Source: Nocardioides sp. (GTDB taxonomy: Bacteria > Actinomycetota > Actinomycetes > Propionibacteriales > Nocardioidaceae). From it: a stretch of DNA of 64,000 nucleotides. The notes under the pieces are model-generated. The model had not been told where the DNA came from and did no database searches. It was given only the letters and a program-made list of their open reading frames with translations. Shown piece by piece: positions 46,703 through 63,104 of this stretch; positions within the stretch are counted from its first letter, which is position 1; each line of letters starts with the position of its first letter. Location: the NCBI GenBank assembly GCA_002729525.1, contig PBYI01000042.1, positions 1 through 64,000 on the forward strand, given 5' to 3'. Both the position numbers and the translations under genes were made by a program.

Positions 46703-47491
46703 CTACTGCGGGTCGGGCACCGCGTCGAAGGCGTCCGGCGTACCGATGAAGTGCGCGTGGTCGAACGGCCACACCAGCACGAAGACCTTGCCGACGATCA
46801 GGTCCAGCGGCACGAACGGCCGGTCGGGGTCGCAGGAGGCGTTCTTCGGCCCGCACAGCCGGTCGGAGGAGTCGGCCGAGGCGGCGCGGTTGTCGCCCAT
46901 CACGAAGATGCGGTCCTCGGGCACCGTCACCGACCAGTCACGTCGGCAGCCGTTCGGCATGGGGCCGTCGCAGTCGGCCTGGGGACGGATGAAGGCGTCC
47001 TCGTCCACCGAGACGCCGTTGACCTGGAGCTGTCCGAGGTCGTCGCAGCAGGTGACGGTGTCGCCGGGCAGCCCGACGACGCGCTTCACCAGGTGGCCGC
47101 CGGTCGGGTAGAGCCCGACCTTGGCCATGGCCTTGGCCAGCACGGTCTGCGGGCCAGGCTCCGGTCCGGCCAGCCACCCGCCCGGGTCCTCGAAGACCAC
47201 GACGTCGCCGCGGGACGGGGTGTCGTCGAACCAGCTGCTGACCTTCTGCACCAGGATCCGGTCGTTCTCGACCAGGCCCGGCTCCATCGAGGCCGACGGG
47301 ATGTAGAACGCCTGCACCAGGAAGGTCTTGATGATCAGGGCCATGCCCAGCGCCACGGCCAGGAGGATGATCGTCTCCAGCCACAGCGGCGTACGCCGTC
47401 GCTCGCGCCCGGTCGCCCCGCTGTCCCCGGAGGCGTCCGCGGAGGTCGCCTCGGCGTCGGACGGCGGGGGGGTGGCGTCGTCGTCGGGCAC
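46703..47491 (-). CDS. lepB: Signal peptidase I
   Basis: A 262-aa type I signal peptidase with a ~50-residue Asp/Ala/Ser-rich cytoplasmic N-terminus and one membrane helix (ETIILLAVALGMALIIKTFL). The catalytic serine is in FYIPSASMEPGL and the lysine in HLVKRVVGLPGDTV; box E is VMGDNRAASADSSD. It removes signal peptides from Sec and Tat exports, including the secreted proteins in this window. GTG 47491 is chosen because TACATT lies 7 nt upstream. Confidence 0.92.
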   Translation of the reverse strand: MPDDDATPPPSDAEATSADASGDSGATGRERRRTPLWLETIILLAVALGMALIIKTFLVQAFYIPSASMEPGLVENDRILVQKVSSWFDDTPSRGDVVVFEDPGGWLAGPEPGPQTVLAKAMAKVGLYPTGGHLVKRVVGLPGDTVTCCDDLGQLQVNGVSVDEDAFIRPQADCDGPMPNGCRRDWSVTVPEDRIFVMGDNRAASADSSDRLCGPKNASCDPDRPFVPLDLIVGKVFVLVWPFDHAHFIGTPDAFDAVPDPQ

Positions 47492-47498
47492 GCAGGGG

Positions 47499-47504
47499 AA
47501 TGTA
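47499..47504 (-). promoter_or_regulatory. Leaderless -10 element for lepB
   Basis: Reads TACATT on the minus strand, 7 nt before GTG 47491. Confidence 0.5.
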
Positions 47505-47550
47505 CGCCAGGGTGTCGAGCCCGGGCAGCGTCCCTCCGGGGCGGTGCGGC

Positions 47551-49701
47551 TCAGCGGGCGACGACGACCGGCAGACGGAGGGTCGTGCCGTCGCTGCCGC
47601 GCCACACGACGTGCCCGTCGTCGACGCCGCCGCGCTGCGGCACGGGCGCGCTGACGCGGAACCTCGCGGTGGCGCCGGGTGCGAGCTCGAGGCGGTCCGG
47701 GCGCACCCGCACGTCGGAGCGCAGACCGCGCACCGTGGCGGTGTACGTCACCCGGCGGTCGCTGGTGCTGGTGAGACGTCGGGTGGTGCTCGCCCCGCCG
47801 GCGCGCAGCACCACCGAGGTCTCGTCGAGACGGGTGACCTCGCCGTCGTACCAGGCGCGGAACCGGCCGGCGGACACCAGCAGCGCCAGCGAGGAGCGGC
47901 GCCCGGGGCGGACCTCCCCGGCGCCCGCGCGCAGCACGGGAGCGCCCGGGACCGCGGACGTCGTGGTCACCAGGTCCGAGCGCACCCGGGCGGGCCGGTC
48001 ACCGCGGCCGAGGTGCACCGCCGCCACACCGGCGACGTACGCCGCCGCCACGGCCGTGCCGCTGGCGAAGTCCCACCCGGAGCCGTCCGGGACCGCGCCG
48101 AGCAGCCCGCTGGCGGGGGCCACCAGGTCGGGCTTCACGACGCCGTCGCGGGTGCTGCCGGTCGGGGACCACGGGGCCGGACGCGCGCGCCGCGCGGGTG
48201 TCGCGCTCGGGGCGAGCACGACCCGGGCGGCCGGGTGCTCGGCGAGCCAGCGGCCGAACCGGACGCCGTCGTCGGCGTCGAGGTGGATCGTCGGCACGTG
48301 GTGCGGGTCGGCCTGCACGTCCGCGCCGGCCCGGGAGCCCGGGCGGGCCCGGTTGACGAGCACCATGGCGGCGCCGTCGGCGAGGGCGACGGCGCGGGAC
48401 TTGTCGACCCGGCCGATCCGGCCGCGCTCGCACAGCACGGCGGCGCCGGCGACCTGCGCGGCGTCGAGACTGCCGGGTGCGCAGACCCGGGCGTCGGAGG
48501 ACCGGGCGGCGGTGGTCGCGACGTCGGCGCCCCGGACGACCCGGACGGGTCCGACGCGCCCGCGCGACAGCATCGCGCCGGTCAGGGTCGGTCCGTCCGG
48601 CAGCAGCAGTCGCCCACGGGGCTCGGTGCCGGCGAGCGCACCCACGGTGGTCACCCATGGGACGGGGTGCGCCGCGCCGGCGTCGTCGGTGCCGCGGTCG
48701 TCACCCGCGGCCGCCGCGACGACCACCCCGGACTCGGCCGCGCCCAGGAGGGCCAGGTCGAGCGCGTCGACGGTGGCCGGCCCGCCGACCGAGAGGCTGA
48801 GCACGTCGACGCCGTCGGCGGTCGCGTCGTCGACGGCGCTGACCAGGTCGGTGGTCGAGCAGCCGTCGTCGTCGGGGTCGGGGGCGCTCCAGCAGGCCTT
48901 GTAGACCGCGAGCGAGGCGTCCGGTGCGCGGCCGCCGTGTCGGCCCAGGTCCGTGCCGGCGACGGACGCGGGCACTCCGGCGTTGCCGGCCGCGACCGAG
49001 GCGACCAGGGTGCCGTGGCCGTCGGTGTCGAGGGGCGAGAGCGCCGCCGACGAGGCGACCGCGTCGGCGCCGAACCCGTCGACGTACCACCGGGCGGCCA
49101 CGACCTTGCCGCCGCAGTCGGAGGCCGACCAGCCGGGGCCGTCCTCGCAGTGGTCCGGGTCGAGCGGAGCGGGTCCGGCCGTGACACCGGCGAACGACGG
49201 CGCGTCGACGTCGATGCCGGTGTCGACGACGCCGACCACCACGCCGCTCCCGCCCCGGGCCGCGCCGGTCGTGCGCGCTCCTCCCGGCACCGCGCCGGCC
49301 GCGGCCCGACGCGACCCGGCGAGCGGGCGCACCGAGTCGGCCTCGACGAGCTGCACGTCGGGCTGCGCCCGGAGCACGTCGGCCTGGTCCTCGGTGACCC
49401 GGACGGCCAGCCCGACGAGCGCGTCGCTCCACCGGGCCACCACCTCGACGTCCGAGCCCTCGTCGTCCACCGCCGCCAGCACCCGGTTCTGCCGGGCCAG
49501 CGCGGTGTAGCGCGCCAGTACGCCGGCGGCGTCGTTCGCGGCCGCCGCCACGCCGGGGCCGTCGAGCACGACGACGTACAGCCGGGTGGTGTCGCGGGCC
49601 TGCGCGGGCGCGCCGAGCGGGGCCGCGACCAGCGCGGTCGCGGCGACCAGGGCGGCGACCAGCGCGGTCACCACCTGCCGTCCCCCGGCACGGAGCCCCA
49701 T
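47551..49701 (-). CDS. Subtilase-fold secreted protein lacking the catalytic serine
   Basis: A 716-aa secreted S8-family protein. Domain order: signal peptide (to about residue 36, APAQARD), inhibitor-I9-like propeptide (~40-125), catalytic domain with Asp160 (VVVGVVDTGID) and His229 (DTDGHGTLVAS), PA-like insert (~400-480), and a C-terminal beta domain. In the canonical GTSMAxP motif this protein reads SGTAVAAAYVAG, with Ala550 at the catalytic serine, and the oxyanion-hole Asn is Asp334 (AAGDD). The gene is otherwise intact, with GAAGGAGG before ATG 49701. It is probably a non-catalytic pseudoprotease. Confidence 0.85.
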   Translation of the reverse strand: MGLRAGGRQVVTALVAALVAATALVAAPLGAPAQARDTTRLYVVVLDGPGVAAAANDAAGVLARYTALARQNRVLAAVDDEGSDVEVVARWSDALVGLAVRVTEDQADVLRAQPDVQLVEADSVRPLAGSRRAAAGAVPGGARTTGAARGGSGVVVGVVDTGIDVDAPSFAGVTAGPAPLDPDHCEDGPGWSASDCGGKVVAARWYVDGFGADAVASSAALSPLDTDGHGTLVASVAAGNAGVPASVAGTDLGRHGGRAPDASLAVYKACWSAPDPDDDGCSTTDLVSAVDDATADGVDVLSLSVGGPATVDALDLALLGAAESGVVVAAAAGDDRGTDDAGAAHPVPWVTTVGALAGTEPRGRLLLPDGPTLTGAMLSRGRVGPVRVVRGADVATTAARSSDARVCAPGSLDAAQVAGAAVLCERGRIGRVDKSRAVALADGAAMVLVNRARPGSRAGADVQADPHHVPTIHLDADDGVRFGRWLAEHPAARVVLAPSATPARRARPAPWSPTGSTRDGVVKPDLVAPASGLLGAVPDGSGWDFASGTAVAAAYVAGVAAVHLGRGDRPARVRSDLVTTTSAVPGAPVLRAGAGEVRPGRRSSLALLVSAGRFRAWYDGEVTRLDETSVVLRAGGASTTRRLTSTSDRRVTYTATVRGLRSDVRVRPDRLELAPGATARFRVSAPVPQRGGVDDGHVVWRGSDGTTLRLPVVVAR

Positions 49702-49776
49702 GTGCCCTCCTTCGAGCGAACGTCCATCCTCTCTCACCCCGCCAGGTGACGCCACGGGTGCGTCCAGACCGGGCCG

Positions 49777-49782
49777 TACGCT
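49777..49782 (+). promoter_or_regulatory. Leaderless -10 element for the HAD phosphatase
   Basis: TACGCT, 7 nt before GTG 49790. Confidence 0.5.
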
Positions 49783-49789
49783 CGCCGCC

Positions 49790-50395
49790 GTGGCACCAGT
49801 CATCGGCTTCGACCTCGACCTCACCCTCATCGACACCCGCCCCGGCGTGGCCGCGGTGCTCGAGGTGCTCGGCGAGGAGCTCGGCGTGGACCTGCCGGTG
49901 GCCGACCTGGTGCACCAGCTCGGCCCGCCTCTGGACGTGATGCTCGCCCCGCACCTGCCGGCGGACGCCGTCGGGCCGGCGGGTGACCGCTTCCGCGAGC
50001 TCTACCCGTCGCTGGCGATCAAGACGGTCCCGCTGCTGCCCGGAGCCCGCGACGCGGTCGCGGCGGTCAAGGAGGTCGGCGGTCGGGTGCTCGTGGTGAC
50101 CGGCAAGTACCCCGCCAACGCCCAGCGCCACGTCGACCACCTCGGGCTGGCGATCGACCACCTCGAGGGCTGGGTGTGGGGCACCGGCAAGGCCGACGTG
50201 CTGCGCCGCGAGGGCGCGCTGGCGTACGTCGGCGACCACGTCCACGACGTCGAGGGCGCGCTCGCCGCGGGGGTCACCAGCGTGTCCGTCCCGACGGGCG
50301 GCAGCAGCCGGGCGGACCTCGAGGCAGCCGGCACCCACGTCGTGCTCGACAGTCTCCTCGAATTCCCCTCCTGGCTGGCGGGGGTCGTGGCCTAG
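49790..50395 (+). CDS. HAD-family hydrolase (phosphoglycolate phosphatase-like)
   Basis: A 201-aa HAD hydrolase. Motif I FDLDLTLIDTRPG (nucleophile Asp and acid/base Asp), motif II VVTGKYPANA, motif III Lys around GTGKADVLRREG and motif IV YVGDHVHDVEGAL are complete, with a helical cap between I and II. It resembles Gph-type phosphatases, but the substrate cannot be told. The GTG start at 49790 has a leaderless TACGCT. It is divergent from the pseudoprotease and followed by the cold-shock gene. Confidence 0.82.
   Translation: MAPVIGFDLDLTLIDTRPGVAAVLEVLGEELGVDLPVADLVHQLGPPLDVMLAPHLPADAVGPAGDRFRELYPSLAIKTVPLLPGARDAVAAVKEVGGRVLVVTGKYPANAQRHVDHLGLAIDHLEGWVWGTGKADVLRREGALAYVGDHVHDVEGALAAGVTSVSVPTGGSSRADLEAAGTHVVLDSLLEFPSWLAGVVA

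Positions 50396-61883: not shown

Positions 61884-63104
<1,221 letters not shown>

Follow-up and report, generated by a model that had tools for sequence, protein, structure and literature searches.

Catalytically dead subtilases are a known class within the S8 family; a survey of 227 prokaryotic subtilases counted 8 of them (PMC2605481). CspC of Clostridioides difficile, an S8 protein, is functional despite its dead triad, and its prodomain stays uncleaved owing to that broken triad (PMC6636752). PIMMS2 of Plasmodium is a subtilisin-like pseudoenzyme that lacks the GTS motif (PMC5520436). Here we describe a subtilase gene from a Nocardioides draft genome (5.0 Mb, 99% complete), located within a stretch of 64,000 nucleotides that was analyzed as a whole and is referred to below as the window, in which alanine occupies the position of the nucleophilic serine. 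The initial annotation had read the product as a secreted subtilase that had lost both its catalytic serine and its oxyanion asparagine, and as a maintained pseudoprotease.

Locus and domain architecture

The gene starts at an ATG at 49701 on the minus strand and is flanked by lepB and a divergent HAD hydrolase gene, with the following features.

47551 to 49701, minus strand: subtilase ORF, 716 amino acids, Ala550 variant (from translation; S8, I9, PA, and fn3_6 by Pfam)
49706 to 49712, minus strand: ribosome-binding site AAGGAGG, 4 nt 5' of the subtilase ATG (read from the sequence)
49597 to 49701, minus strand: Sec-type signal peptide, residues 1 to 35, predicted cleavage after AQA (by sequence inspection)
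49321 to 49578, minus strand: Inhibitor_I9 prodomain, residues 42 to 127 (PF05922, 22.1 bits against a cut-off of 21.2)
47959 to 49251, minus strand: Peptidase_S8 domain, residues 151 to 581 (PF00082, 96.8 bits against a cut-off of 21.8)
48262 to 48486, minus strand: PA domain insert, residues 406 to 480 (PF02225)
47560 to 47799, minus strand: fn3_6 domain, residues 635 to 714 (PF17766)
46703 to 47605, minus strand: signal peptidase I (lepB) ORF, the gene that follows downstream, probably starting within the ORF (PF10502; syntenic neighbor)
49586 to 50395, plus strand: HAD hydrolase ORF, divergent neighbor, true start probably near 49770 (PF13419; syntenic neighbor)

All four Pfam families of the subtilase ORF score above their curated cut-offs, and the I9 prodomain, the S8 domain with its PA insert, and the fn3-like C terminus together give the architecture of a cucumisin-type S8A protein. 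Among solved structures, the plant subtilases cucumisin and SBT3 come closest both by sequence (E values of 8e-38 to 6e-25 against the PDB) and by fold (4yn3, E value of 7e-30). An AlphaFold2 model has a mean pLDDT of 67.7, with residues 131 to 280 below 50. The protein scores far below the cut-offs for the Csp germination pseudoproteases (NF040809, 18.4 bits against 1250) and the mycosins of type VII secretion (TIGR03921, 37.3 bits against 278.75); its S8 insert is a PA domain, not the jelly roll of the Csp proteins.

The order of genes, a cold-shock gene (csp) and HAD on one side and lepB on the other, is conserved in Nocardioides. In several relatives a GNAT-like acetyltransferase gene and/or an acyl-CoA-ligase-like gene (MESYARGETDQPLL...), both named from the sequences as read rather than from a family search, lies between the subtilase and lepB genes (L189, L190, L213, and L219, compared against 47500 to 47551 of the window); the window and its sister sequence, G029, have neither at this locus. 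A search of the window for Rfam families and tRNAs found none.

The active site and its orthologues

Translation, Pfam, and the orthologue alignment confirmed the S8 assignment and the four active-site residues named in the initial annotation.

49222 to 49224, minus strand: codon of catalytic Asp160, kept, in VVDTG (sequence and orthologue alignment)
49015 to 49017, minus strand: codon of catalytic His229, kept, in DGHGT (sequence and orthologue alignment)
48700 to 48702, minus strand: oxyanion position, Asp334, in AAGDD (Asn in 109 of 120 aligned orthologues)
48052 to 48054, minus strand: nucleophile position, Ala550, codon GCC, in SGTAVAAAYVAG (Ser in the other 119 orthologues)

The Asp-His-Ser triad of an active S8 peptidase is therefore incomplete, with Ala550 standing beside an intact Asp160 and His229, and we infer that the product is without catalytic activity.

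Orthologues were collected by a DNA search over 220 Nocardioides genomes, presence being counted in a sample of 200. The window gene belongs with them to a lepB-linked group, by full-length similarity and by its HAD and lepB neighbors; the orthologues are 41 to 56% identical to it over their full length and are widespread in the genus. The catalytic Ser is found in 119 of the 120 aligned sequences, the sole exception being the window, and is also kept in 20 further relatives, of which 2 are orthologues and 18 are longer homologues from genera elsewhere in the family. The catalytic His is present in all 120, and the Asp is missing from one (G032), whose reading frame breaks nearby. A pseudoprotease family, in which the catalytic loss would be common to the orthologues, was ruled out by these counts; an intact serine motif in orthologues was also what the initial annotation had named as evidence against its own reading, and the Ser is present in every one of the other 119. 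Only two sequences depart from a TCN codon at this site: one has AGC, and the window has GCC. The codon of the sister, G029, is TCC, from which a single base change gives Ala.

The same arithmetic would fit an error of sequencing or assembly at 48052 to 48054, the true protein being an ordinary active subtilase with Ser at this site, as in all 119 other orthologues. We consider this improbable: a lone substitution is a rare kind of error in a draft genome of this completeness, neither the frame nor the flanking motif is disturbed, and Val551, the residue that follows, also differs from the commonest one at its position.

The oxyanion position is a different matter. The column holds Asn in 109 of the 120 orthologues, Ser in 4, Asp in 3, Gly in 2, and Thr and Glu in 1 each, and 10 sequences other than the window combine a non-Asn residue with the catalytic Ser, among them the sister G029, which has Ser there. 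In the convertase PC2 the natural oxyanion residue is Asp, and its replacement by Asn gave no measurable difference (PMC4182778). Asp334 lies within the ordinary variation of the family. Because the oxyanion residue varies in Ser-bearing orthologues and Asp is natural in PC2, it is only the loss of Ser that counts as a strong sign of inactivation in this subtilase. Of the two losses in the initial annotation, that of the Ser stands, as unique among 120 sequences, and that of the oxyanion Asn is weakened as a second, independent inactivation. The ten orthologues with an intact triad and Asp, Glu, Ser, Gly, or Thr at the oxyanion position (G013, G067, G225, G232, G231, G029, G174, G016, G149, and G141) offer a natural series in which the role of that residue could be tested.

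In subtilisin, turnover falls by several orders of magnitude with the S221A substitution. Catalysis that is altered and not absent, such as a weak, water-mediated hydrolysis relying on the Asp-His pair or action on an unusual substrate, would draw on the retained Asp160 and His229 and on the tolerance of PC2 for an oxyanion Asp; set against the subtilisin result, and with no Ser, Thr, or Cys substituting at position 550, it seems very improbable.

The serine motif is unusual throughout the group (window positions 48040 to 48054 and the orthologues), reading mostly GTSAATA or GSSAATA, and Ala occupies the usual place of Pro, four residues past the Ser, in all 120 orthologues. Some family-level homologues keep GTSMSxPH.

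Constraint, dispensability, and a proposed partner

Of 109 columns conserved at 97% or more in the other orthologues, the window keeps 106, departing only by Leu43Val, Leu102Val, and Ser550Ala. The full reading frame of 716 residues, the AAGGAGG site, and the signal peptide likewise bear out the description of a gene that is not visibly decayed. With a looser threshold of 85%, 202 columns qualify; departures number 26 in the window (rank 3 of 120) and 22 in the sister. The window sequence has an unremarkable root-to-tip length, ranking 39th of 120, and its terminal branch, at 0.61 amino acid substitutions per site, matches the 0.62 of the sister. Relative-rate counts over the whole protein with five outgroups gave no acceleration against the sister (unique changes 84 to 91 versus 74 to 100; Tajima chi-square below 1.8). 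A codon model returned omega values of 0.055 to 0.090 in trios with the window and 0.052 to 0.123 in trios without it, rough figures with synonymous change near saturation. Relaxed selection on the window branch was not seen in the relative-rate counts, the near-invariant columns, or the trio omega values. A cluster of departures lies in the prodomain, at window positions 49423 to 49443 (residues 87 to 93: P87V, Y89A, T92S, and T93D, against a consensus of 92 to 97%); the sister keeps the consensus at these positions except 93.

This constraint bears on the reading of the initial annotation, that the protein is a maintained pseudoprotease. In such a secreted protein, resembling CspC and CspA, the dead S8 cleft would bind peptides or a partner and act as a decoy, a scaffold, or a sensor; the prodomain, left uncleaved, would keep it closed, or a second protease would open it. 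The full-length frame with its good ribosome-binding site, constraint equal to that of the sister, departure from the consensus at two active-site positions, and the precedent of CspC with its dead triad and uncleaved prodomain (PMC6636752) all agree with such a role. The nucleophile loss and the constraint of that reading stand, but maintenance does not follow from them: the loss of Ser is seen in a single genome, the sister has TCC, and the oxyanion variation predates the loss or is independent of it. The dN/dS comparison proposed in the initial annotation did give a low ratio, about 0.06 to 0.09; this is an average along a long branch, perhaps mostly passed with Ser still in place, and leaves maintenance unproven. 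Nor is there an active paralogue of the same type, a conserved partner gene, or a new domain. We regard maintenance as possible but doubtful. Its more specific form, a selected conversion to a binding-only protein in one Nocardioides lineage without gene duplication, the protein being locked in the proprotein state because its own prodomain cannot be cut, we hold to be rather unlikely.

The gene is dispensable in the genus, since only 118 of the 200 sampled Nocardioides genomes have it, complete or broken copies counted, and five genomes carry frame-broken copies (G121, G012, G045, G133, and G032, at loci L180, L181, L182, L186, and L188). As evidence of decay these five are suggestive only, as some of the breaks adjoin runs of G or C and may be sequencing errors. 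A sixth candidate, G119, proved to be a run of N.

In the window genome this subtilase type occurs only once, with the second-best match at 33% identity, and synteny marks the window gene as the orthologue, which rules out a paralogue accompanied by an active copy elsewhere in the genome. A different, canonical type of subtilase is encoded at 61884 to 63104, and the initial annotation had suggested that the Ala550 protein might regulate it. Among 200 genomes, 41 have both types, 77 only the lepB-linked one, 40 only the canonical one, and 42 neither; co-occurrence is not above expectation (odds ratio of 0.56, P = 0.057), and the suggestion was set aside. The canonical type recurs about 11 to 18 kb from the lepB-linked subtilase in G102, G189, G176, G157, G081, and G041, perhaps owing only to regional synteny.

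Origin of the Ala550 protein and comparison with known subtilases

Pseudoproteases usually retain an active paralogue. We lean to a recent loss of activity in a dispensable protease, caught before further decay, over an established pseudoprotease with a new job, because the change is confined to one genome, many relatives lack the gene, the genome holds no active paralogue of this type, and nothing points to a partner; we give this reading close to an even chance of being right, which makes it the likeliest of those considered. A single T-to-G change (TCC to GCC) in the window lineage would have swapped the nucleophilic Ser for Ala in a cucumisin-type S8 protease. Export and folding would be expected to be unchanged. 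Because the nucleophile is missing, the protein would be expected neither to cleave peptide bonds in substrates nor to release its own I9 prodomain, a step argued from subtilase biochemistry and from CspC. Unless some other secreted protease trims it, the product would then persist as a proprotein whose uncleaved prodomain sits in the active-site cleft.

Under neutral evolution since the loss of Ser, the gene can have accumulated no more than about 0.06 changes per site (95%), given only two further departures at near-invariant columns, and the loss must therefore be recent; if the loss is older than that, the fold has been maintained for another reason. An intact remainder of the protein would be seen soon after such a loss, and just as much if selection still acts on the fold. 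Since 0.06 changes per site is a small slice of a 0.61 branch, the neutral reading requires recency rather than demonstrating it. The oxyanion change could mean a longer relaxation of the active site, though the sister is also non-Asn there. A recent loss would be an ordinary snapshot of gene decay. Were the protein maintained, it would offer a clean example of a single-copy orthologue losing catalysis, set against more than a hundred counterparts that look active, and an easily tested step from enzyme to binding protein.

Cucumisin and the plant SBT subtilases (S8A; PDB 4yn3, 3vta, 3i6s, and 7eox) share the domain order of the Ala550 subtilase, which differs in being bacterial and about 25% identical, in having Ala as nucleophile residue and Asp at the oxyanion position where they have Ser and Asn, and in having Ala where they have Pro, four residues after the Ser. 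The Nocardioides orthologues at the same locus are closer in sequence and share its neighbors; they differ from it by the Ser. Likeness to CspC and CspA lies in the S8 fold and the dead triad, whereas an uncleaved prodomain would be a likeness by analogy. The Csp proteins have a jelly-roll insert, have lost two triad residues, and work beside an active paralogue, CspB; the Ala550 subtilase has a PA insert and has lost one triad residue, in one genome. The loss in PIMMS2 is common to all its orthologues, whereas that at Ala550 is private. The Ala550 subtilase is a further instance of the known inactive S8 class, not a new kind.
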